From NCBI GenBank assembly GCA_009602725.1, contig WELB01000279.1, positions 6,488-37,511 of the forward strand: DNA of 31,024 nucleotides, given 5' to 3'. Of the stretch, positions 11,031 through 30,759 are shown piece after piece (positions within the stretch are counted from its first letter, which is position 1; each line of letters opens with the position of its first letter). The notes below the pieces were generated by a model. That model was not told where the DNA came from. It worked only from the letters and a program-made list of their open reading frames with translations, and searched no databases. Origin of the DNA: Spirogloea muscicola (taxonomy: Eukaryota; Streptophyta; Zygnematophyceae; Spirogloeales; Spirogloeaceae). The translations under genes and the position numbers were made by a program.

Positions 11031-12792
11031 ATGGCGTCCCAGCAGGAGCCCGCGGACCCGGCGCACGAGAAGTACGAGGAGGGCAAGCAGCAGGGCCGCG
11101 TGAGTCGAGCCCACGTTCCTCACAACCAGCCCCGCCTTCATCACCTGCCTCGTATTCCAATTATATTGACTGATGTAGTCACCCTGTAGTCATGGTGTGC
11201 TAGCGGTAGTGCAGTGTGCTGCATGCGCATGCACTTCTTGCATGTCTATTGTAAGCCACATAAGAACGTGCTGAACATGTATTATTAAACACGAGAGTTT
11301 ACGATTCCCTGCCCACGCCGTGTCTCAGCATGGCAAAGATACCAAGTCTGTGGTGATAATGCCACATTATGAAATGCAGCCCGTGTCTTGTGTTTGTCAC
11401 ATTGCCGCTCGTCACATGCGAATCCGATAAGCCTGTTGTGCAGAGCTATGTGGAAGCCACGCAACAGAAGACTGCGGCGGCCGTCGACTCGGCCAAGGAG
11501 AAGCTGGCGCAGACCAAGGAGGCAACGTCACATAAGGCACAGGAGACCACTGACGCGGCGAGGCAGAGAGCGGCCAAGGCCCAGGAGCGGGCGTCCGAGG
11601 AGGCTCAGCGTGTCGCGCAGGCGGCGAGGCAGAAGTACGAGGAAGCGCTGCGGAAGGTGGAGGAGGCTAAGGAGTACACCGGCGAGAAGGCGGAGGAGAT
11701 GCGAAGGAGGGCCGCTGAGGCTGCCGAGGACGCCAAGCACCGGGCCGCCGAAAGCGCGCAGCGGGCTCGCGAGCTGGCGGCAGAGCAGCAGGGCAAGACG
11801 GCCGGTGTGGTGGAAAAGGTGCATAGATAGTTACCTTGATCAATTCGACAATGTATTCTGCTATTGGGCAGTCTGAGATCTTGACCACAATGTGCAACAC
11901 AACTGCATGCAGGTCCTGGAGACTCTGTAAGGGCTAGCATTTCACCTACTTGACGTTTTTCAATGTTCGTCAACGTAATCTAATGTGATTTCACATGACG
12001 AGTGTAATGACTGCTGGGTATTAACTACTACTTCTGCAGCTAGGCGAGCAGTTAAAGAGCGTGCTCGAGTCGGCCAAGGATACTCTTTTCCACTCTGGAG
12101 GCGAGCTGAAGGAGAAGGCGAAGGAGACCCAGGAAACGATGGCGCAGAGGGCGCAAGAGACCAAAGAGGCGACAGCCCAGAAAGCGCAGGAGGCCAAGGA
12201 GAAGACAGCACAGACAGCGCAGGAGACCAAGGAGAAGACAGCACAGAAAGCGCAGGAGACCAAGGAGGCGACAGCCCAGAAAGCGCAGGAGATCAAGGAG
12301 GCTACGGCTGAGAAGACGCAGAGGGCGGCCGAGGAGGCGGAGCAGAAGTACGAGGCGGCCAAGCAGCGTGCGGAGGAGGCAAAGCATCAGACGGGCGAGC
12401 GGGCCGAGGAGCTGCAGCGGCGCGCTGAGGAGGCCAAGGAGCAGGCAAAGCAGGAGGCCGACGAGAAGATGCGGCGCGCTCAAGAGGCCGCTGCTGAGCA
12501 GCAGGGCAAGGCCAGTGGCCTGCTTGAGAAGGTGATGGCATGGTGTCTCTTGAGCACAGCCCTTCATAGTGTGCAGATGTAAAGCTGCATGTACATCCGA
12601 AAGTTGTAATCTTCTCCGCGGAATTGAAGCAATGTTGCAGCGAAAAAGTGAAAATGCTTATGGTGATAGCAGGAGTGGATCACAGCGGTGCTAACAATGT
12701 TCCCATGTGCTCAGGTTGAGGAGCAGTTGGGGGGGTTGCTGGAGAAGGCCAAAGAAATTGTGGGGGGTGGAGGTGAGCACCAGCAGAAGTGA
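11031..12792 (+). CDS. Group 3 late embryogenesis abundant protein (LEA_4-like), 4 exons
   Basis: A probable stress protein: group-3 LEA proteins are unfolded in water, become helical on drying and protect membranes and proteins. Exons 11031-11099, 11444-11818, 12040-12531, 12715-12792 (TGA), all phase 0 with GT-AG borders; 337 residues. The start MASQQEPADPAHEKYEEGKQ is the first in-frame ATG after the CT tract; the frame stays open upstream, so a longer N-terminus hidden by the gap is possible. Sequence is almost only Ala, Glu, Lys, Gln, Arg and Thr, with 11-residue units such as AQKAQETKEKT (residues about 165-235). No signal peptide is seen with this start, so a cytosolic location is likely. 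Exons 2 and 3 end in similar modules (AAEQQGKTAGVVEK and AAEQQGKASGLLEK), suggesting exon duplication. Confidence 0.9.
12110..12320 (+). repeat. In-frame 33-bp tandem repeats in LEA exon 3
   Basis: About six units coding for variants of AQKAQETKEKT/A are arranged head to tail, with strong DNA similarity (GCGCAGGAGACCAAGGAG recurs). This matches the 11-residue periodicity of group-3 LEA proteins. Confidence 0.85.
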
Positions 12793-18500: not shown

Positions 18501-21035
18501 TATATAAAGACCTCTCGGCTTCTCTCTGCTATGCTGAAGAGGGACTAAAGACATAGCCATGTCTTGGCATTAAGGGCTCAGATACCTGATATGATGCCTT
18601 GCTAGTGCAGCTGGTTAAGTGGTGGAAGGGATATGGTGGGAGAGTGGACTTCACTAACCCTCGAGCAGTGGACTTCTGGCACCGGAGCCTCAACTTGACA
18701 CTGCAATGGGGCACGGCGCGGGGCTTCAAGTGCGACGATGGCGAGGGGAACTACTTCAAGGAGGGCGCGACGTTCTTCGACGGCACGCCTCTGACTCTCA
18801 TGCGCCTCCGGGTTAGCTCTTCCTTGTCCTTGAGAAAACCCACCTGTGACATTCCTGAAGCTCATTCATTAACTTACATGAGTTACACGATCCGTCCGCT
18901 GTGTCTGCTAAGATAAGTATGTGAGGCTTGCGTTTCTTTGAGTAGATGGACCAGCTGGTGAAGAGCTGGCTTACTCATCATGGATTTTTCCTTCTGGAGG
19001 CTTCTTATCTGGCTTGCATACCAGGCTCTGGGCCAAGGAGTTGAAGCTTGGAGTTTGCCTGCATGAGTATCCTCGAGGAGGTTGTCAGCCGCTGCTAAGC
19101 ACTGTGGAGCTTTCTGCAGTATCAGGAGAAGTATATGGATGCAATGTACTCGTTTGTCAAGAGATCTTTGGGGGGAGACGGTGTTATCATGGCTCGAAGT
19201 GCTTTCACCGGAACAGCCAAGTGCGATCCGGAGACTATCTCTGCCAGGCTCATAGCTCCAATTTGTGCAAATAAATCCAGAGCCAATCCCATTGGATTTA
19301 TTGACTTACCGACAGCACGCCAGCCATTTTGAGTAAAGTAGCAGTGGCAGGTGCAAGCAGAGAGCAAGCGTCTAAGCATGTTGAGGTGGGCGGAGGTGAG
19401 GCAGGTCGTTTGTGTGGGCGGGCGATCAGCGGGCAACGTGAACTGAGGCTGTGGGCCTGCCGAGCGTCATCATAGCGGGGCAAACCGCTGCAGCCTCCGG
19501 GCTGTTTCTGTGGGGCCACGACATTGCCGGCTATTTTGGCAAGGTCATCGAGAAAGAATTATTCCTGCGTTGGGCGCAGCTTGGGTGAGGACCAGTGCCA
19601 GATCCATTAACCCTGAGAATTCTACAGCTCTGAACCCCAGTGGCAGCTGACCAACTTTTGGCATGCACTGTACTCCGTCAACCTGTCGCGCCTGTATCAA
19701 GCAGACCCCTACATTTACCACAGAAATCAAGCAGACCCTACATGTACACAGAATCACTTTTTTGTGCTTCACAGCTATCAGTTGAGAATGCATGGCAAGA
19801 CTTCTCCATGTAGCAATCTGGTGGCCTGGCAGTAGTAGTGATTGCTTTGATAAGCAACTTGTCAGAAGAGGGCAATAAGGAAGAAATCTGACAATTGTTC
19901 CCAGAGTCTGCTCTGACGCAAGCGTGTTATGGTGGCTGCCGGTGCCCTATCGCCGCTCATGCACCAGTTCGGGCAGGCCAACAATGGGCCCTGGAACTAT
20001 AACGAGGAGACCATCTCAATCTACAGGACGTTTGCACGGCTCCACCTCTCCTTGAACCCCTACCTCATGGAAGCGGCACACATGGCCGCTGAGACGGGAG
20101 GGCCCATCATTTGCCCTATGGCCCTGTGCTTTCAAGCCGACCCGAATGCAAGGTCGCGACAGTGGCAGTACCTCCTTGGCCCAGACATACTCGTCGCCCC
20201 AATTTACAAGCCCGGTTCGAGCGTCTCCGTGAGTCTCTTGGACAACTCATGACTCGTTGTGACGCATCAATACTCATGTCCCTAACAGAAGTTGTCGAGG
20301 AGGTGAAAGCCAGCAAACTGTGTATCCTGCAAGGGTTCCAGTCAACTTGCAAGCACAGAGGTCGCCGTTGGTGCGTAAGCTGCATCCGGCAAGGGGTTGC
20401 AGAGTGGCTCTCTTATCAACATTCTTATGTTTCCCCTCAGGTGTACTTCCCCGAGAACACTGCGTGGGTGGACTTCTTCAGTGGCGGGCATGTCCAGGGC
20501 ATGGGTTCCGAGCTGCTCGTGGCTGTCCCGCTGGACAAGATGGCGCTGTATGTTCGGTTGGGGGCCATCCTGGAGACCATATCAGAGCATGTGGACACGC
20601 TGGTACCACGGGGCCCAGATACAGACGCCTCTGTCAAAACCCTGGGGAGGTATGTCCTCGTCTCCATCAGCCTGCGACTAAGACACTGTATCACATACTG
20701 TGTACGACTTTCAAGCTTAATATGCTGGCATGGACAGATGGCCAGTATTGGCACTCCATCTATTAAGCAGATAGATGATGTGAGCACAGGTGCGACCAAT
20801 TATTCACCCCTCATTCAGACTTTCAGCCATTACATCACAGAGGTACTTGTCAATCTGACCTCCGCTTGCCACTTATTTCCCTCTCCGTGCTTTCTGCTCT
20901 GTGTGCAGCCAGCGCATTCTGCAGCTGTGGGCCGGTGAGGGAGTCTGGACTTTAAGGACGCGAGAAGGCCTCCAAGTCGTAAGACGCACACACGGTGGAC
21001 ATGGAGTGCTGGAGCTGAGAACCCCGGCGGCTTGA
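15506..21035 (+). CDS. GH31 alpha-glycosidase with N-terminal membrane anchor, 13 exons, two apparent lesions
   Basis: Predicted retaining alpha-glycosidase (alpha-glucosidase/xylosidase group), anchored with the catalytic part in the secretory lumen or outside. Exons: 15506-15681, 16032-16267, 16709-16938, 17105-17224, 17452-17619, 17789-17943, 18087-18231, 18611-18811, 19120-19220, 19405-19584, 19943-20228, 20441-20649, 20909-21035 (TGA); 777 residues. Phases agree throughout. Residues 27-47 form a signal anchor. Family blocks: GVWVDSYAPGTFDL, AWAFAPWKGRDVH, VILIDSPWATGYN, FWLTPFVNKEN, nucleophile Asp452 in GFKCDDGE, acid/base Asp518 in WAGDQ, GHDIAGY, RWAQLGALSPLM and GPDILVAPI. The 66-residue spacing of the two Asp equals that in E. 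coli YicI. Introns 1 and 5 use GC donors. Defects: codon 523 is TGA where the family has Trp, and intron 10 lacks an AG acceptor. Read as drawn, the protein stops five residues after Asp518. Confidence 0.9.
17968..18010 (+). repeat. 21-bp tandem duplication in GH31 intron 6
   Basis: ATTAAGGCTCTCTTATGTAT and then a near-identical unit follow each other inside the intron. No effect on coding. Confidence 0.8.
18232..18610. other. GH31 intron 7
   Basis: A 379-base AT-richer intron (donor GTGAGC, acceptor TAGTGCAG). I see no nested gene or repeat in it. The other long introns (350 bases for intron 1, 441 for intron 2, 308 for intron 8) are similarly empty. Confidence 0.7.
19439..19441 (+). other. 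In-frame TGA at a conserved Trp codon of GH31 exon 10
   Basis: Exon 10 reads WAGDQRAT, then TGA, then TEAVGLPSVIIAG. GH31 relatives have Trp here, so TGA replaces an expected TGG (apparent G-to-A at 19441). Phase on both sides is otherwise intact. Confidence 0.85.
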
Positions 21036-21584: not shown

Positions 21585-21665
21585 AAGAGCTCATCCAATA
21601 GAAGCCAGTGGCTGTGAAAAGCCAGCCCGAAAAGAATGAACAAGGCCCAAAGGGCCGAAGGATTG
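21585..21665 (+). repeat. R1 hairpin repeat, single copy
   Basis: AGCTCATCCAATAGAAGCCAG, then GGCTGTGAAAAGCCAGCCC and GAAAAGAATGAACAAGGCCC. It is one of the cleanest copies and shows the short hairpin GGCTG..AAAAG..CAGCC. Confidence 0.7.
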
Positions 21666-21880: not shown

Positions 21881-22816
21881 TTAAGCGGAACCAGCAAGGA
21901 CGGCCTGCTGCAGCACCTTGCGGTTGTACGCCCCAGGACGGAGGGTCTTGAAGCGGCTGGCAGCCTCGAAGCGGGCGAATTGGCAATCAGCAGCAAGGAC
22001 GCCCGAGGACTTGTAGCTGTCGGGCGTGCCCTGGAGGTAACCGGCGCCATTAGCGCCGGCGACCTGCCACACCCAGAGGAGCTCCGAGTACTCCACCTCG
22101 TAGCTGGTGGGCGCCTTGCTGGGGACGAGCGCGTTGGCGAAGGTCTGGCCGAGCACGCCGTGCACCGAGCGGCTGAAGTGGGCCTCCAGGACCTCGACGC
22201 TGAAGTGCACGTACGCGTTCTCATTGGTGCGCAGCGAGGGGACCTCGGGCCGCAGCTTGAGCAGCAGGCGCACGACGCCGGGGATGGAGACGATGATGCT
22301 GTCGACGTCGTCGTCGCCGTCGGGGCCGTGGCCCTCCCAGTGCACGCTCACGGCGCCGTCCTCCGACTTGCGCTCCTCCGTGAGGGCCAGCTTGTGCACC
22401 ACGCCGTCGAGCTCGACCGAGCCGAGGTAGCCGTCGCCGCGGGCGGCCTCGGCGCCCTCGCGCGCGGCCAGCACCAGGCTATGGCTGCCGGACAGGATGC
22501 CGACCTTAGTGATCCAGGTGTGGGTCTCGTCGCCGGCGGTGTAGCCCGTCATGTGCATGTTGACGTGCACCTTGCGGTCGCTGAACATGCAGTAGGTGGC
22601 GCCGGCAGCGCCGGTGAAGTCGAAGTGGATGCCGTCGGCGCCGGAGAAGTGGGGGTCGCCCTTCACGCCCACCGTCAGGGTCACCAGCGCCGGCGGCGGC
22701 GGGGTGCCGTTGCTGCTGCCGCCGAGATTGACGTCGACGAGATTGGCCATGGCCGTAGGCGCGGCGGCGGCGGCCACCAGGAGCAGGAGGGCGAGGGCGG
22801 CGGCGGCGCGGGCCAT
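21881..22816 (-). CDS. Secreted root-cap-like (VWD-related) protein, copy A, intronless
   Basis: 311 residues, function unknown; the plant family is called 'root cap' or LEA-like. Residues 1-24 are a signal peptide (Leu/Ala core, ending ATAMA-like PTAMA). A short linker with TPPPP follows, then the conserved domain: GVKGDPHFSGADGIHFDF, TYCMFSDRKVHVNMHM, TWITKVGILSGSHSLVLAA, HFSRSVHGVLGQTF and AADCQFARFE. The blocks SDxxxHxNxH, GILxGSHxL, VxGVLGQTx and DCxxARF are those of plant root-cap proteins. Only two Cys remain in the mature part (TYC, ADC), probably one disulfide. No ER-retention tail is seen; the C-terminus is LAGSA. The ATG is in a GCCGCCATGG context with a TATAAA box 114 bases upstream. 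It is near-identical to copy C over the central domain. Confidence 0.9.
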   Translation of the reverse strand: MARAAAALALLLLVAAAAAPTAMANLVDVNLGGSSNGTPPPPALVTLTVGVKGDPHFSGADGIHFDFTGAAGATYCMFSDRKVHVNMHMTGYTAGDETHTWITKVGILSGSHSLVLAAREGAEAARGDGYLGSVELDGVVHKLALTEERKSEDGAVSVHWEGHGPDGDDDVDSIIVSIPGVVRLLLKLRPEVPSLRTNENAYVHFSVEVLEAHFSRSVHGVLGQTFANALVPSKAPTSYEVEYSELLWVWQVAGANGAGYLQGTPDSYKSSGVLAADCQFARFEAASRFKTLRPGAYNRKVLQQAVLAGSA

Positions 22817-22929
22817 GGCGGCGGCTAGGAGGGCTGGCGGGCAAGGAGGACTGGAGTGTGTGCTGAGTGATGGGCAAGGGGGGAGGTTGGTGCGGGAGCT
22901 GGGTTGGGAACTGTCTGGCTGCCGAGCTC

Positions 22930-22935
22930 TTTATA
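22930..22935 (-). promoter_or_regulatory. TATA box of copy A
   Basis: TATAAA within CTGTATAAAGAGCTC on the minus strand, 114 bases upstream of the copy A ATG, in an otherwise GC-rich flank. Confidence 0.65.
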
Positions 22936-23039
22936 CAGGCGGGGCGAGGAGGGTGGTCGGTGAACCAGGAGGTGGGTAGCGCACATGGGGGCGCGAACGC
23001 GGCTGCGATCTTGGTGGGCGTATGAGAGGGGGGAAGGGT

Positions 23040-23040
23040 N

Positions 23041-23133
<93 letters not shown>
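23040..23133 (-). repeat. CT tract (GA on plus) upstream of copy A, with one N
   Basis: About 93 bases of pure GA on the plus strand, i.e. CT on the sense strand of copy A, starting about 225 bases upstream of its ATG. The single N at 23040 marks an unresolved edge. Frames running through it code only for Ser-Leu or Glu-Arg repeats. Confidence 0.95.
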
Positions 23134-23136
<3 letters not shown>

Positions 23137-23439
23137 AGGGGGCCCTCGTCGCACGTGGTGCCGTCCTGGCGCCTGGGCGGGCAATCGGGCTGACGCAGCT
23201 TGTCGCGATGCGAGACGCCAATCCCACGAGCACGTGCAAGCACGATGGCCCTCCTGGCGGCAATCAGCTCTGTGGCACTTGAGTGTTGTGAACAACCCCC
23301 GAAGCCACCTGCTGGCAGCAGAGGAGCTTCGGCGGGCGAGGGTGGCCGCACTGGCATGGTTTAGGGCGACGAATCCAGCAATTATCACGCGACGCCAGCC
23401 CCCAAGGCTGCTGGGGCCCGCTGCCCACAGAGTGAAGAG

Positions 23440-23940
23440 TGCGCCTCTCTCAGAAGAAAGAAGAAAGTGCTCGCCCATTGAGAATAGGGGCTGGAAAAGC
23501 CAGCCCAAAGAATCAACAAAGGACGAGAAGGGGGCCAGGGGAAGCGCTAAGAAAAACAAGGGCTCGCCCATAGAGGATGGGGGCTGGAAAAGGATAAGCG
23601 CGGCCAGATTGACTGGTGGCTGGGAAAGGCCAGCCCAAAGGAATGGACAAGGTCCGAGGGAGCCTGAGTGCGAACGACTAGGACTCAGACATCAGCCAGG
23701 GACTGGAAGCGCTAACAAAACAAGGGCTCGCCCATAGAGGATGGGGGCTGGAAAAGGATAAGCGCGGCCAGATTGACTGGTGGCTGGAAAAAGCCAGCCC
23801 AAAAAAGAATGAACAAAGGACGAGAAGGGGCCAGGGGAAGCACCAAGAAGAACAAGCACAATATGAAACTAAGCAGCTACGAAGCACCCAGTAACCCCTG
23901 CTAAGCAGCTGCAGGTCAGAGAAACTGGGTTCTCAGAGGC
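23440..23940 (+). repeat. R1 hairpin repeat array, direct copies
   Basis: Contains GTGCTCGCCCATTGAG, GGGGCTGGAAAAGCCAGCCC, and a roughly 100-base segment at 23541-23645 (AAGGGCTCGCCCATAGAGGA... GCGCGGCCAGATTGACTGGT) repeated about 170 bases later at 23711-23815. The array ends with an AAGCAGCTAC...CTGCTAAGCAGCTGCAGGTC block. Confidence 0.85.
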
Positions 23941-24569
23941 GCCCACCCGCCGTCTTCATGTAACTTGGCTACTTGAGTCGCTACGTTACTTAAGCCGGAA
24001 AAGTGCTAGAGCTTGGTTTAATCATTCGCTGGGCTTGCCAGACGCCTCTCCGACGTCACAACTCGAGCACGTTCGCCGGCCCCAGACGATGACCGGCGTG
24101 TCACCGGCATGAAATAGAATCCTTAGGATCTCGCGGTACCTCCGGAACAGTGGATGTATCTTTTAAAGTATGCAAATTCGGTATGATGCCGCCGGGGAGC
24201 CCGAACGTCGGTGAGCCCCCCAAGCCGCGTCCAGACGGGCCTCTGCTGTGTGCTGGGGGTAGGTGCACGTGCGGGACCTGCCTGGCCGGCGTTGTGGGCT
24301 CCTGCTTGCAGCTCACGTGCTCAGAACCGCCCCGCGGCCGGCACGTCGCGACGGAGCCGGTCGGAAAGAGCCGGCCGGTCTGGTCTATCTAGGTGAAGCT
24401 CAGGTGCGTGGAACAGAAAAAGACTGGGAGGCCGGTGGCAGCGGGGGGCCGTCCCTGCTCTCCTCGTTCGCTGACGCTTGACTGACTACGAACGAATCCA
24501 CCCCATAGACAAGGTCAGCGATTAGTAGGTCTTTGCTGGGATCAATCACCGGGGGTTTAGTAACGAACC

Positions 24570-24665
24570 CACAATATAGTGAGCAATCGCTTCAGACCTT
24601 GTCCATTCCTTTGGGCTGGCCTCTCCCAGCCACCAGTTAATGTGGCCGCGCTTGGGATCTCTTTT
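24570..24665 (-). repeat. R1 array segment, inverted copy
   Basis: The reverse complement reads GCGCGGCCACATTAACTGGT and then GGCCAGCCCAAAGGAATGG, ACAAGGT, matching 23590-23655 almost base for base. This makes the cluster a composite of direct and inverted units. Confidence 0.8.
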
Positions 24666-24714
24666 CGCTGGATGGACCATGTTCTTGGGCTAGGTTCTGT
24701 CAGGTAAAACCCCC

Positions 24715-25205
24715 CTTGCCGAAGAAGTGAGCTCTTCCGAAGGGGGCGGGGGGCTGTGAAAAGCCATCCTTTCTGCCCAAAGCTAGAATGGATGAACAAA
24801 GTTCCGAAGGGGCCGAGAGGCGCCAAAAGCCAGCCGTCATGCAGGGCCGTAAGCACCGCAAGTACGACCAAGACGCACCGACACGCCGTACGCGTCCTAG
24901 TAGAAAGAGTGTGCTCGCCCGTAAAGAAGAAGAAAGAAAGTGCTCGCCCATTGAGACTAGGGGCTGGAAAAACCAGCCCGAAAAAGAATGAACAGAGTAC
25001 GAGAAGGGGGCCAGAGGAAGCGCTAAGAAACAGAAGCAAAGCAGCTACAAATTCTCAGTAACCTCTGCTAAGCAGCCGCAGGTCGGAGATGCTAAGCTCG
25101 TAAAGAAGAGGGGCTGGCAAAGGGAAAAGCTCGCCCATAGAAGAGAGGGGCTGGCAGAAGCCAGCCAAAAGAAGAATGGACAAAATCCAAAGCCCAAATA
25201 TGAAA
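24715..25205 (+). repeat. R1 hairpin repeat array, second direct block
   Basis: Repeats the order seen at 23440-23940: GCTCGCCCATTGAGACTAGG, GGGGCTGGAAAAACCAGCCC, a GAATGAACA box, GAAGCGCTAAGAAAC, then AAAGCAGCTACAAATTCTCAGTAAC...CTGCTAAGCAGCCGCAGGTC, then another hairpin at about 25110-25175. It supports a unit of roughly 0.3-0.5 kb duplicated within the region. Confidence 0.8.
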
Positions 25206-25484
25206 AACATGCCGACAAAGAGAAGACAAAGGAACTGTAGCTGGGAAGGCGGCGCTAGGGTGGCGGACCCGCGTGCTGTAGTTGTACGGGAAGAGGAGCC
25301 CAGCCTTGGAGCTTCAGAGCTCACGTGCTCCAGCGCTTGCGCTCGAAAGACGCCAAGCAGTGGGAAAGTGTCCAGTGTGGGGGGCACGATGCGGAGGCTC
25401 CAGGTAGTCCGCCCAATTACAATAAGAAAATAAATGCAGGGACTGGAGACGTCCGGCTGCCCCCCTCCTCGCAAACCCTCCTTG

Positions 25485-25640
25485 CTGGCAGAAGAGCTAG
25501 TCAATTGCCGTCCGGTATTCGAGCGTCAGCTAGCGACCTCTATGTGCTGACTCGTGGTTACTGAGCGGGTCAGCTTAGCAGCAGGTGACGTACATTTGTC
25601 CAATGTGCTTGCCTTTGTACTTGGCCACACATGGCCTCCT
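25485..25640 (-). repeat. Dispersed repeat family R2, inverted copy in the copy B promoter
   Basis: The reverse complement reads GTGGCCAAGTACAAAGGCAAGCACA, then CTGACCCGCTCAGTAACCACG and CTCTTCTGCCAGCA, parallel to 7962-8105. It ends about 30 bases before the TATA-like box of copy B. Confidence 0.65.
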
Positions 25641-25667
25641 CGCAGACCGCGCGCCTCTCCCCGCCAG

Positions 25668-25676
25668 TACTTAAAG
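25668..25676 (+). promoter_or_regulatory. TATA-like element of copy B
   Basis: TACTTAAAG lies 89-97 bases upstream of the copy B ATG, similar in position to the TATAAA box of copy A. It is a weak match to consensus. Confidence 0.4.
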
Positions 25677-25764
25677 CGCCGCAGCCCAGCAGCCCCAGCA
25701 CTCACCTCCCTCCCCCCTGCCCTCCAGCCCGCACAGGCCAGCAGCTCGGCCAGCCGCCGCCGCC

Positions 25765-26778
25765 ATGGCTCGCGCCGCCGCCGCCTCCCTCGCGCTCCTG
25801 CTCCTGGCCGCCGCTGCCGCGCCCACGGCCATGGCCGGCCTCCTCGACATCTCCCTCGGCGGCGGCGGCGGCAGCTCCAAGTCGCCGCCGCCACCGCCGA
25901 GCCTGGTCTCGGTCTCCCTGGGCGGCGATGGCGGCGGCGGCGGCGGCGGCACCGGCAGCCCGCCGCCGCCGCTGGTAACCGTGACGGTGGGCGTGAAGGG
26001 CGACCCCCACTTCTCGGGCGCCGACGGCGTCCACTTCGACTTCACCGGCGTCCCCGGCGCCACCTACTGCATGTTTAGCGACCGCAAGGTTCACGTCAAC
26101 ATGCACATGGCGGGCTACACTGCCGGCGAAGAGACGCACACCTGGATCACCAAGGTCGGCATACTGTCCGGCAGCCACAGCCTGGTGCTGGCCGCGCGCG
26201 AGGGCGCCGAGGCTGCTCGCGGCGACGGCTACCTCGCCTCGGTCGAGCTCGACGGTGTGGCCCACAAGCTGGCCCTCACAGAGGAGCGCAAGTCGGAGGA
26301 CGGCGCCGTGAGCGTGCACTGGACGGGCCACGGCCCTGATGGCGACGACGACGTCGACAGCATCATCGTCTCCATCCCCACCGTCGCGCGCCTGCTGCTC
26401 AAGCTCCGGCCAGAGGTTCCGTCGTTGCGCACCAGTGAGAATGCATATGTTCATTTCTCCGTCGAGGTCCTGGAGGCCCACTTTAGCCGCTCGGTGCACG
26501 GCGTGCTCGGCCAGACCTTTGGCAACGCGCTCGTTCCCAGCAAGGCGCCTGCCGGCTACGAGATGGAGTACTCGGAGCTCCTCTGGGTGTGGCAAGTTGC
26601 GGGCACTGATGCCACGGGCTACCTCCAGGGCACTCCTGAGAGCTACAAGTCCTCGGGCCTCCTCGCTGCTGACTGCAAGTTTGCACGCTTTGAGAGTGCA
26701 AGCGGCCTTAAGTCCCTCCGGCCAGGTGCATACAACCGCAAGGTGCTGCAGCAGGCTGTCCTCGCTGGTAATGCTTAG
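25765..26778 (+). CDS. Secreted root-cap-like (VWD-related) protein, copy B, intronless, long linker
   Basis: 337 residues, the longest of the three copies. A signal peptide (about residues 1-24, MARAAAASLALLLLAAAAAP onward) is followed by a Gly/Pro linker with an internal duplication: two SLGG-Gly-rich blocks, each ending in a run such as KSPPPPPS or GSPPPP. SPPPP is the extensin-type motif that plants and green algae hydroxylate and glycosylate. The domain then repeats the family blocks GDPHFSGADGVHFDF, WITKVGILSGSHSLVLAA, RSVHGVLGQTFGNAL and AADCKFARFE, ending LAGNA. The start is in a GCCGCCATGG context. Likely a wall or extracellular glycoprotein (inference). Copy B runs opposite to A and C and is the most diverged in codon choice near its 3' end. 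Confidence 0.9.
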   Translation: MARAAAASLALLLLAAAAAPTAMAGLLDISLGGGGGSSKSPPPPPSLVSVSLGGDGGGGGGGTGSPPPPLVTVTVGVKGDPHFSGADGVHFDFTGVPGATYCMFSDRKVHVNMHMAGYTAGEETHTWITKVGILSGSHSLVLAAREGAEAARGDGYLASVELDGVAHKLALTEERKSEDGAVSVHWTGHGPDGDDDVDSIIVSIPTVARLLLKLRPEVPSLRTSENAYVHFSVEVLEAHFSRSVHGVLGQTFGNALVPSKAPAGYEMEYSELLWVWQVAGTDATGYLQGTPESYKSSGLLAADCKFARFESASGLKSLRPGAYNRKVLQQAVLAGNA

Positions 26779-29700
26779 ATATGGGCCCCTTCTCCTCTCT
26801 TTTACATCAGCAGCCGCTTTGTCTCCTTGTACAAGTTTGTTTCATTTTGTTTTTGGCTGTTTAAATTGGCCGCAGATTATATTATTACGGTTCCCCTGCA
26901 GCTGCTTATCGGCTTGGGCTGTTTGAAATTGTACATGCTTGAGGTTCTTTAGACCTCCAATTCCAGCTATACAGTGCTCCAGACTAGCGCATTCCTCCCC
27001 GCATATGTCTTGGTGCTGATAGCCATCCCACGCATGTCCAGCAAAATCTAGTAATACTGAAAAACAATTACATTGACAATTTCTGCCGAGGTCAGCGACG
27101 TGCAATCATCAGTATGTTGTCATTGAGAAGGCAAGCGGGCAACCAACTATAGCAACTGGGTTAAAGTTTCAAAAGGGGCAGCACAGCTCACTACCACTGT
27201 AGTCAAAGCGACTTGATGACTAGCTCCAGCTCCTTGAGGACTAGCTCCAGCTCCGGCTTCACCTACAACTGCGGGAGCCCTTCACAATCCCGTCGACTAG
27301 CAGCAAAATGCCTCAGCTGATGCCAAGGAGCGATTGCCGAAGACCGCAGCCCATGCCTTCTGTCATGTATGGAGGAATGGTATTGCTGCTGCCCTTTCTA
27401 TCAGAGAGAGAAGGGGCGCGGTTGGCATGGATTGAGAGGGAGGCCAAAGCAAGCCGGTACACTGCGTGTAGAGGAACGCAGGGATATCTAACAGGGGCCA
27501 AGGTTACAAAACGGGAGAATACAATAGACGTGAGAGTCTAGTATCTACGAGTGAGCACTAATTTGGCAGAATATCCATCAATGTCAAGGCCTCGTGGACT
27601 GCCTGGCTTGGCTGCACCCTGCTTGGAAGCACTCAAACATCAATCAATCGGATTGAAGGAAGGGCTATTGCTCCGAAATAAATTCAATATGAAATCCGTC
27701 CTTTGCATGTCAATCAATTTTCCGGCTCCCAATTGTCGGAGCTCAGGTCCTTGACCAAAGCAATCTGCTCACAGATACCCTTGGCCTCCGTCGCTTGGCC
27801 TCTGTGGCCGTTGGCATGGCATGGAGCACCTTCTGAATAACATATGATTATGGAAGCTCGCATTTCGCAATGAATGTCATGCGGAGATGGTTTTGGCTGG
27901 CTCTCATTCGTGCAGGATGGGTTGGACACATGAAATTCATCATGCGTTACTCAACTTGTTGTAGTTGATTGCACGCAAGTCAGCACCCTAGAAAGGCCTA
28001 CTCACCAGGACTGCAGCTTCTCTCCGTTCCACAATAAATCAACCCAATTAACAGCAACAGATACGTACAGCCACAGTTCCCGTTGCCTTGTGTATAGCTA
28101 GCGGGAGGATTCTGCAAAGACATTATGCCATGATCAGCCGTCGAGATCCTCGCAGTGTTGCCTCTTGCCTTACAATACCCCTTTGAGTCCAGCGTCCAAC
28201 GTCTCCAAGTGCCATAAGGCCACTAGAGAAGAGGCTTGCCCAAGATCTAGTAGCGTCCGGCGCTCGTTGGCTCGAGCTCCTGCACCGCCTAGCGAGCAGC
28301 GCGAACTCCCGACGTACCCAAGATGAGCAGGCCGGTCTCAACGCGGCAGGCACTCGCCCAGGTGTATCGCACGCGCCTGTCAGTGTCGCTGCAGCGGTCA
28401 ATGGGACACGCGCTTCATCTGCGTGCTGGTTGCGCTTCGGCTGACGCCTCTGGCTACAAACAGGGGACCCGCTACTTGGAGACTGTTTTTCTGACCTGCG
28501 GCGGCTCAGCAGGGGATATGAGCATCCAGAGAATGGTCGCCGTGTGCTTCAGCGCTTTTCTGGCCCCTCCAATTTTGTTCTTTCTATTTCCTAGGCTGGC
28601 CAATCACAGCCATCGGCCTCTACTGGAAGAGACTTCCTTCTGGCTCGCTTCCTCTGCTGGCCCCGACTATGTATCTCCAACTGTTGCTCTGATTCTTTCC
28701 AGCAGTCTGTAGCTCTTCCAGGTTCTCAGATGGTGCGGCATTGCGTGTCTGATCAATTATATGGTAATATCCAAGATCACTATGAACATGACCCACTGAC
28801 CTTGCCCTCTGAGGACGTGAGGTCCATATAAAGCTTATGTAAGTTGATGCCACCGGCGTGGATGGTCCTCTTTGCATGTCATCGTAGTCCTCACCCGACT
28901 GTGACTACAGCACTCCTGTGGCTAACACTTCGGATTCAAGCTTAACGTTAAAATTTTGCGGCAAAGATATTCTATTTTGCATGCCCTGTATTGCTTACAC
29001 TGGGACAGACATCAAGCTTCGGCTTCAGTCCCAGGCTTCGTGAATAGTTTGCCTGATCAAGGACTCGAGTTCCACGATCTATGACTGGCAATGACTATGT
29101 AGGTACTCCATCTCGTGCTGATGCTGAGGGTGGGCTTCGTGACCTCCTTTCAGCAGTGTCTGTTCTTTCTAGCCGCTTTTGATGAGGATGCGAACAACTC
29201 CTCAGGCTTTCAGGCCTTCATGTCCGATATGCTTTCATATCTCCCCGGCTTCCCATATGTCTACAGGGCTCCCTGGCACATGCCTTACATCTTCGTGTTG
29301 GGCGTGGCCGCCTCAGTCTCTGAGCAAGCGCCTACCTTCCTGCTGCTAATATCTCCACCTTGCGGCCGCTGACTAGGGGATTCGGAGTAACACCCTTGGT
29401 AGTCTCTACGTTTTTCAGCTCCTTCGGACTTGCTTCATGCAGAGGTGGGCTGGCTTTTCACAGCCCTCGCCCTCATCTTAGATAAGCTGCTCTTTCTAAT
29501 AGCTCTCCTGGAAGTGTGGGTACGCCATGCTCTCCAGTGGCCTCTCACTGTGCACCTTGAGCTCGCAGTGTCACTCTCTTTGACATTATACAGGCTCTCC
29601 AGTCTCGACATCGTACAGTACTGTGTCTGCAGTCCTAGAGGTCAGAGCAGAGGTTGCGTAGTCATGCGAGGACGGATCCCTGTATGGCGAATGCTGAACG

Positions 29701-29832
29701 AGAAGTAACAGTGGATGTCAACAAGGCTTCAATAATGTACAGGCAGGCAGCTTTGCCTTAGGCAGCGAAGCCTGTAGTGTAGAGAAGTATTGAAGTAAAG
29801 AATGAAGTGAAGAGCACCTACATAATGCGCGT
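26779..29832. other. Intergenic region between convergent copies B and C
   Basis: About 3 kb. I see 3' UTR sequence, a small tandem duplication of GACTAGCTCCAGCTCC (27218-27256), an R1 copy at about 29405-29505, and scattered frames. Two stretches could be exons but are not supported enough to call: 28123-28401 (minus) and 29138-29372 (plus, after the acceptor-like CTCCTTTCAG). Confidence 0.5.
29405..29505 (-). repeat. R1 hairpin repeat, inverted copy
   Basis: GTGGGCTGGCTTTTCACAGC, then CCTCGCCCTCATCTTAGATA. It is the reverse-strand counterpart of the 21585-21665 copy. Confidence 0.65.
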
Positions 29833-30759
29833 CTAAGCAGAGCCGGCAAGTACGGCCTGCTGCAAAACCTTGCGATTGTACGCGCCAGGCCGAAGGGCCT
29901 TGAGGCGGCTGGCTGACTCAAAGCGAGCATATTTGCAGTCAGCAGCGAGAATGGCGGATGACTTGTAGCTGTCAGGCGTGCCCTGGAGGTAGCCCGCGCC
30001 GTCGGTGCCAGCGACCTGCCACACCCAGAGGAGCTCCGAGTATTCCATCTCGTATACGGCGGGCGCCTTGCTGGGAGCGAGCGCGTTGGCGAAGGTCTGG
30101 CCGAGCACGCCGTGCACGGAGCGGCTGAAGTGGGCCTCCAGGACCTCGACGCTGAAGTGCACATATGCGTTCTCGTTGGTGCGCAGCGACGGGACCTCGG
30201 GCCGCAGCTTGAGCAGTAGGCGCACGACGCCGGGGATGGAGACGATGATGCTGTCGACGTCGTCGTCGCCGTCGGGGCCGTGGCCCTCCCAGTGCACGCT
30301 CACGGCGCCGTCCTCCGACTTGCGCTCCTCGGCGAGGGCCAGCTTGTGGGCCACGCCGTCGAGCTCGACCGAGGCGAGGTAGCCGTCGCCGCGGGCGGCC
30401 TCGGCGCCCTCGCGCGCGGCCAGCACCAAGCTGTGGCTGCCGGACAGGATGCCGACCTTGGTGATCCAGGTGTGCGTCTCGTCGCCGGCGGTGTAGCCCA
30501 CCATGTGCATGTTGACATGGAGCTTGCGGTCGCTGAACATGCAGTAGGTGGCGCCGGGCGTGCCGGTGAAGTCGAAGTGGACGCCGTCGGCGCCCGAGAA
30601 GTGAGGGTCGCCCTTGACGACCGCGATAGGTGGCGGCGGCGACGAGGCGATGGGCGGCGGCGGCGAGGCGGTCGTGGCGGTGTCCTTGGCGACGGCCCCG
30701 GGGATGTAGGTGGCGGCCGCCAAGACGAGGAGGGCGAGGACGGCGGCAGTGGGGGCCAT
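29833..30759 (-). CDS. Secreted root-cap-like (VWD-related) protein, copy C, intronless
   Basis: 308 residues. Signal peptide at about residues 1-24 (core VLALLVLAAATYIPGAVA), then a linker with two extensin-like motifs (ASPPPPIASSPPPPIAVV), then the domain from KGDPHFSGADGVHFDF to AADCKYARFE and the C-terminus LAGSA. The two conserved Cys are kept. The central coding DNA is nearly identical to copy A, while signal peptide and linker differ in both sequence and length. The ATG is in a GCCATGG context; no TATA box is visible upstream, although an R1 repeat lies about 170 bases away. Copies A and C share strand, with B inverted between them. Role unknown; a structural or protective wall protein is the simplest inference. 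Confidence 0.9.
   Translation of the reverse strand: MAPTAAVLALLVLAAATYIPGAVAKDTATTASPPPPIASSPPPPIAVVKGDPHFSGADGVHFDFTGTPGATYCMFSDRKLHVNMHMVGYTAGDETHTWITKVGILSGSHSLVLAAREGAEAARGDGYLASVELDGVAHKLALAEERKSEDGAVSVHWEGHGPDGDDDVDSIIVSIPGVVRLLLKLRPEVPSLRTNENAYVHFSVEVLEAHFSRSVHGVLGQTFANALAPSKAPAVYEMEYSELLWVWQVAGTDGAGYLQGTPDSYKSSAILAADCKYARFESASRLKALRPGAYNRKVLQQAVLAGSA

Follow-up and report, generated by a model that had tools for sequence, protein, structure and literature searches.

The stretch of Spirogloea muscicola DNA analysed here (31,024 nt, called the window below) contains three intronless open reading frames (ORFs), located at exactly the positions given in an initial annotation, whose products P0001, P0002 and P0003 comprise 311, 337 and 308 aa, respectively. 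Each of the three starts with a hydrophobic N-terminus (hydropathy) and has an A-x-A site at residue 24 (placed by eye); after 25-54 linker residues with one or two proline runs comes a domain that opens with VKGDPHFSGADG. We assign this domain to the DPH/Root_cap family of streptophytes and, on the basis of profile comparisons, consider it very probably related to the von Willebrand D-domain (VWD). The proposed architecture, three secreted-type copies with a signal-peptide-like start, a proline run and a GDPH domain, is borne out by the ORFs, by hydropathy and by a motif scan, and can be listed as follows:

21881..22816, minus strand: P0001 gene, 311 aa, intronless; signal-peptide-like start, one TPPPP, GDPH-type DPH/Root_cap domain
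22745..22816, minus strand: putative signal peptide of P0001, residues 1-24, ending A-M-A (hydropathy; cleavage site by eye)
22661..22744, minus strand: short linker of P0001, residues 25-52, with TPPPP (protein sequence)
22649..22660, minus strand: GDPH motif of P0001, residues 53-56, its sole Asp-Pro (motif scan)
25765..26778, plus strand: P0002 gene, 337 aa, intronless; Gly-rich and Pro-rich linker, GDPH-type DPH/Root_cap domain
25765..25836, plus strand: putative signal peptide of P0002, residues 1-24 (hydropathy; cleavage site by eye)
25837..25998, plus strand: linker of P0002, residues 25-78, with SPPPPP, a poly-Gly run and SPPPP (protein sequence)
25999..26010, plus strand: GDPH motif of P0002, residues 79-82, its sole Asp-Pro (motif scan)
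29833..30759, minus strand: P0003 gene, 308 aa, intronless; two SPPPP, GDPH-type DPH/Root_cap domain
30688..30759, minus strand: putative signal peptide of P0003, residues 1-24, ending A-V-A (hydropathy; cleavage site by eye)
30613..30687, minus strand: linker of P0003, residues 25-49, with two SPPPP, cysteine-free (protein sequence)
30601..30612, minus strand: GDPH motif of P0003, residues 50-53, with the putative Asp51-Pro52 self-cleavage site, its sole Asp-Pro (motif scan)
29836..30606, minus strand: part of P0003 downstream of the putative cut, residues 52-308, with the VWD-like part and the Root_cap block

Root_cap domain, linker and gene family

P0003 shares 86% identity with P0001 and 85% with P0002. 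Among the three genes, Ka/Ks of the domain is 0.14-0.17, so that they evolve as constrained genes; over all pairs of five copies, including those on contigs C83 and C164, it is 0.10-0.22, which together with the open frames led us to reject the possibility of pseudogenes. P0001 is nearest to the single copies on C83 and C164 (Ks 0.13-0.15), and pairs involving P0002 or P0003 have a domain Ks of 0.23-0.37. A chance origin of the motif was also rejected, as a degenerate DNA pattern for G-D-P-H occurs three times in the window, once per ORF, with 0.25 occurrences expected, and none of 100 shuffles of the window reached three. Finally, tblastn of genome and viral contigs gave no relatives and nothing to indicate that the genes came from bacteria or viruses, in scans based on short patterns that distant relatives may escape.

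All three proteins narrowly pass the curated Pfam cut-off of 27 for Root_cap (PF06830), with 27.5, 29.9 and 27.5 bits, which confirms the root-cap-like domain recognised in the initial annotation; a search of NCBIfam gave no match. Their domains begin at DPH and end with the Root_cap block, as defined for the streptophyte "DPH domain", which begins with DPH, or with DPR in grasses (Prochazkova and co-workers, PMC10796529). Since DPH is the normal start of the domain in this family, GDPH is not odd for root-cap proteins, and the view that GDPR is their usual form has to be abandoned; indeed, both forms coexist in this genome. The window proteins also share with this domain (PF06830, IPR009646) a length of about 240-280 residues, the occurrence of many copies per genome and the order of a beta-sandwich part (predicted in that paper) and a Root_cap block. 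Over 2,100 streptophyte matches have been reported, and certain genomes, such as those of Closterium and wheat, reach 50 copies or more (PMC10796529). The window copies differ in that they are intronless and carry a short S/T-P4 stretch where sister genes have an Ole e 1 domain and AnIBP has an ice-binding domain (PMC10796529).

This short stretch consists of TPPPP in P0001, SPPPPP and SPPPP in P0002 and two SPPPP in P0003, whereas L010, a related copy on contig C83, reads APPPP. Extensins are recognised by at least two SP3-5 repeats; P0002 and P0003 have two each and P0001 none. The description of the linker as extensin-like thus stands as far as a Pro4-5 run is found in all three proteins, but there are only one or two S/T-P4 per protein, P0001 lacks SP4 and the linkers contain no tyrosine, so that the label is generous and the likeness to extensins weak. 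The combination of a Pro-rich stretch with Root_cap nevertheless has precedents, given PtEXT30 and the Penium peptides: a Populus survey describes PtEXT30 as a chimeric extensin with PF06830, listed alongside Arabidopsis AtEXT51 (PMC5073881), and a Penium secretome study includes peptides from root-cap proteins (PMC6027541). Like the window proteins, PtEXT30 and AtEXT51 combine Pro-rich extensin-type repeats and Root_cap in one protein; the row in that survey's table reads 5/0/0/0, the first figure being taken as SP3 repeats, versus one or two S/T-P4 here (PMC5073881).

The three genes are part of a family with dozens of loci in this genome (153 Mb, 471 contigs searched). The family set contains 78 loci (L001-L078), including those of the window (L009, L012 and L013), spliced with a custom splice-aware aligner whose exon joins are predictions made without transcripts. 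Seven further places are listed outside this set (C27:830948, C81:102053, C51:609260, C236:118662, C139:400445, C47:547247 and C66:430422), and C139:267739 lies inside L017 and is not counted separately. The motif reads GDPH at 29 loci, NDPH or DDPH at 13 and GDPR at 24, and 12 have no readable Asp-Pro: L031, L037, L041, L058 and L061 are masked or partial, the first exon of L035 was not found, and L044 and L064-L068 seem to have lost the motif. The 68 loci that reach the motif region, ten being left out, provided a set of 21 representatives. In a tree with a VWD outgroup, the window type groups with the nearest GDPH class (support 90/91), which has an intron that the window genes lack. The Ole e 1 domain (PF01190) lies N-terminal to the DPH domain in the GDPH genes L014 (C139, E 1.2e-12) and L028 (C11, E 4.3e-7) and in the GDPR gene L007 (C46, E 2.3e-7), while the window genes have the short Pro-rich stretch instead.

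Some side observations concern the family as a whole. L038, L043, L045 and L050 form a class in which DPH is preceded by N or D rather than G and the N-terminal region is different and contains cysteine; that of L038 (hand-joined, the one of this class scanned) gave no Pfam match. GRAS genes are a streptophyte marker, and a search of the genome gave 92 exon-level GRAS matches, counted as a mark of a streptophyte host. Root-cap and GRAS genes tend to occur in threes on separate contigs (C40/C55/C139, C46/C47/C66 and C27/C28/C180), as after a genome triplication; the presence of GRAS and this triplication would fit a zygnematophycean alga such as Spirogloea.

Probable relationship to von Willebrand D-domains

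The initial annotation had read GDPH as the VWD motif and proposed profile searches against both Root_cap and VWD. In contrast to Root_cap, which passes in 3/3, Pfam VWD (PF00094) remains well below its cut-off of 22.9, with 11.7 and 12.9 bits in two window proteins and no match in P0001. The motif assignment is supported by a likeness of profiles that also extends beyond the motif. In a Pfam search of 14 family members with E up to 1, Root_cap matched 14/14, ITI_HC_C (PF06668) 7/14 (best E 0.0037) and VWD 4/14 (best 0.14), and two unrelated families matched one member each (best 0.045). The ITI_HC_C match lies around HGVLGQ, at the end of the domain opposite to the motif; among the three window proteins, two have it, with 11.6 and 12.3 bits (cut-off 27). 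A profile search of the PDB gave FCGBP (8rde and 8r0t) as best matches.

Because the scores of single sequences and single stretches were weak, the family was compared profile to profile with bacterial VWD. The VWD profile holds only 8 sequences because PF00094 was found in few genomes of the two phyla searched (1/198 and 4/198, starting genomes included); two of the 8 domains are incomplete (L087 and L088) and L093, a short stretch, was left out. Two family alignments were used, A4 with 13 of the 21 representatives and A2 with P0003, P0002 and 12 of the 21. HHalign aligned the 13 members to bacterial VWD with a probability of 95.1% (P 3e-8, 126 columns, identity 17%), the 14-member set with 96.0% (P 4.7e-9, 132 columns) and nine GDPH-type sequences alone with 95.3%. 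When both sides were stripped of the motif and of some 20 residues after it, a score of 31.3 was retained (33.9%, P 4.3e-4, 84 columns), in an alignment collinear with the full one. The motif-free controls were 100 column shuffles, which reached at most 15.6 (18.3 with the uncut profile), and a reversed profile with 11.4; an unrelated secreted control, the Ole e 1 domain of sister genes, scored 14.9 (probability 0.37%). As the motif-free score is above all shuffles, the motif carries much, but not all, of the VWD signal. We regard these comparisons as good evidence, at the profile level, for common descent with VWD.

Several observations weigh against this relationship. VWD and ITI_HC_C are both below the Pfam cut-offs in the window proteins, and whole-genome searches gave no match for PF06668 and none for PF00094, for which 14 controls were silent too. 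No PDB stretch reaches significance individually (i-E 4.6 to 89), most of these stretches span only about 20-25 residues at the motif, and the small E-value of the whole sequence is a sum of repeated motif matches. Furthermore, the HHalign probability falls to 34% without the motif and is 13% for four GDPR sequences alone, and the loop N-G-N-x-N-D-D of bacterial VWD has no counterpart in the algal domain. The acidic loop of VWD, which has a role in calcium binding, follows G-L-x-G; the corresponding stretch is GVLGQTFANALAPS in P0003 versus GLFGTYNGNVNDDF in a bacterial VWD.

Animal VWD domains carry more than two cysteines. The window domain differs from those of GDPH type in having two cysteines and none before the site. 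The GDPH-type VWD of FCGBP, MUC2 and RGMB (PMC10880436) resemble the window domain in a G-D-P-H start followed by D-G and F-D-F-x-G, and differ from it in their acidic loop, absent here, and in C8, TIL and E modules, absent from the window proteins. Similarly, the likeness to ITI_HC_C is limited to the weak match at HGVLGQ described above, and Pfam did not find the vWA module of inter-alpha-inhibitor heavy chains in the window proteins. Searches of the open-access literature found no paper linking the root-cap/DPH domain to VWD, the single paper found for VWD together with streptophytes dealing with other proteins, and PMC10796529 contains neither "GDPH" nor "von Willebrand" nor "VWD".

Putative self-cleavage at Asp-Pro and its alternatives

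The explanation that we prefer, at only just under an even chance, is that the three genes encode secreted extracellular-matrix proteins in which a short Pro-rich peptide precedes a streptophyte DPH/Root_cap domain, that this domain belongs, at the profile level, to the VWD fold family as a divergent member with few cysteines, and that its GDPH cleaves itself and could free the peptide. By alignment, GDPH would occupy the VWD self-cleavage position, between the first two strands. Most likely, in the mild acid of the secretory pathway or wall, Asp51 would attack its own carbonyl and so break the Asp51-Pro52 bond. With no cysteine ahead of the site in the mature window proteins, the Pro-rich peptide would then be held by strand pairing alone and could come free. 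These proteins contain two cysteines only, both after GDPH, and those of P0003 (C73 and C275) are invariant across the 21 representatives. It has been pointed out that cleavage could in principle release the first strand where no disulfide is attached to it (PMC10880436).

Self-cleavage at Asp-Pro in the window proteins, taken by itself, appears possible, with a chance that we place somewhat below one half. D51, P52 and H53 are among the 26/238 columns that are invariant in nine GDPH-type representatives; the conservation filter required DPH and removed none of the nine. Their codons show synonymous changes. In FCGBP, cleavage is stopped by changing D to A or N, or H to N, in GDPH, and is partly blocked by mutation of Q4094, 14 residues after the Asp (PMC10880436). 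The association of the motif with cysteine is also informative. Among the 41 Asp-Pro loci without a cysteine just before the motif, all 41 have His, and among the 25 with such a cysteine, 24 have Arg, a pattern and not an independent count, as related loci share ancestry. The exception, L056, reads CGDPH, with CAC at the site where its close relatives L057 and L060 have CGC, and offers a natural contrast. The occurrence of GDPH and CGDPR classes within one genome provides matched natural controls.

Evidence against cleavage comes from the window, the genome and the literature. All three window proteins have Thr at the position of FCGBP Q4094. R replaces H in 24/66 motif-bearing loci, grasses have Arg for His (DPR; PMC10796529), and L064, L065 and L066-L068, in which the upstream frame is readable, are without any DPH; in the last three, the frame continues upstream, making them natural motif-less relatives of the domain. 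Arg-for-His loci and motif-less relatives together imply that the family does not need cleavage. In addition, the gel spot of a homologue, AnIBP, lay at about 55 kDa, in line with the 54.5 kDa of the uncut protein, although this spot was not identified by mass spectrometry (PMC10796529), and no cut occurred at the GDPH of MUC2 in the host cells from which its structure was obtained (PMC10880436).

Much of this would be expected if the domain were a VWD relative that stays uncut and serves as an adhesive or oligomerising module of wall or mucilage, an alternative whose probability we put somewhat short of one half. The Asp-Pro is retained even at the 24 loci where His is Arg, D51 and P52 being kept in at least 90% of the 21 representatives; the full-length mass of AnIBP on the gel, the DPR of grasses (both PMC10796529) and the Thr in place of the FCGBP Gln point in the same direction. 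However, a mere turn would not obviously need His to track the absence of cysteine (41/41) and Arg its presence (24/25). Rather unlikely, in our view, is a routine chimera of root-cap domain and Pro-rich stretch, a wall protein of the kind listed for plants in which GDPH has no consequence. PtEXT30 with PF06830, listed with AtEXT51 (PMC5073881), and the more than 2,100 reported DPH-domain matches (PMC10796529) make such a protein unexceptional, but it would leave unexplained both the VWD profile match and the unvarying His of the cysteine-free class. That the likeness arose by convergence in a short motif, GDPHxxxxDG, with an unrelated beta-sandwich as remainder, is improbable: the short PDB stretches, the Pfam VWD scores below cut-off, the 17% identity and the 34% probability without the motif would fit it, but not the collinear motif-free score of 31.3 versus at most 15.6 in 100 shuffles, nor the separate weak ITI_HC_C match that 7/14 members show at the opposite end of the domain.

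If self-cleavage within a VWD-related domain is retained as the preferred explanation, it can be extended by analogy with inter-alpha-inhibitor heavy chains. According to two papers (PMC7170535, PMC4661386), these lose a C-terminal pro-domain upon attachment to chondroitin sulfate, through an ester at the C-terminal Asp of the heavy chain; in ITIH3, 5 and 6, GDPH lies between the first two strands of a predicted VWD-like fold (PMC10880436). In this bolder and very improbable reading, DPH/Root_cap would be the self-cleaving VWD pro-domain of the plant lineage, the cut would leave an activated C-terminal Asp that is passed to a polysaccharide as an ester, and CGDPR would be the uncut branch, whose cysteine could tether the first strand. 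The N-terminal module, a Pro-rich peptide here and Ole e 1 in sister genes, may then be fixed covalently to a wall or mucilage sugar. In the tree with a VWD outgroup, branches are very long and the root is not resolved, and the H of the outgroup only suggests that His preceded Arg at the motif. The tie to VWD would provide a concrete hypothesis, Asp-Pro self-cleavage and possibly a sugar ester, for a whole family of streptophyte proteins.

Other features of the window

An ORF at 20111-20938 (plus strand), which adjoins the first root-cap gene, contains a C-terminal segment of glycosyl hydrolase family 31 (28.1 bits, over cut-off). Two neighbouring ORFs with LEA_4-like repeats, at 12061-12582 and 11369-11830 (both plus strand; E 2.3e-10 and 0.001; neither reaches the curated cut-off), possibly encode desiccation proteins. 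A tRNA scan found no tRNA. One intergenic stretch of the window has one partial match elsewhere in the genome.

Scattered repeats of 40-90 bases (GCTCGCCCATxGAG...GGGGCTGGAAAAGCCAGCCC) occupy 23452-25172, with a copy at 21595, and are accompanied by a 62-base inverted pair whose members are 934 bases apart; this region is possibly a non-coding mobile element. Finally, a long GA microsatellite follows an N at 23040-23133, about 220 bases upstream of the ATG of the first gene.

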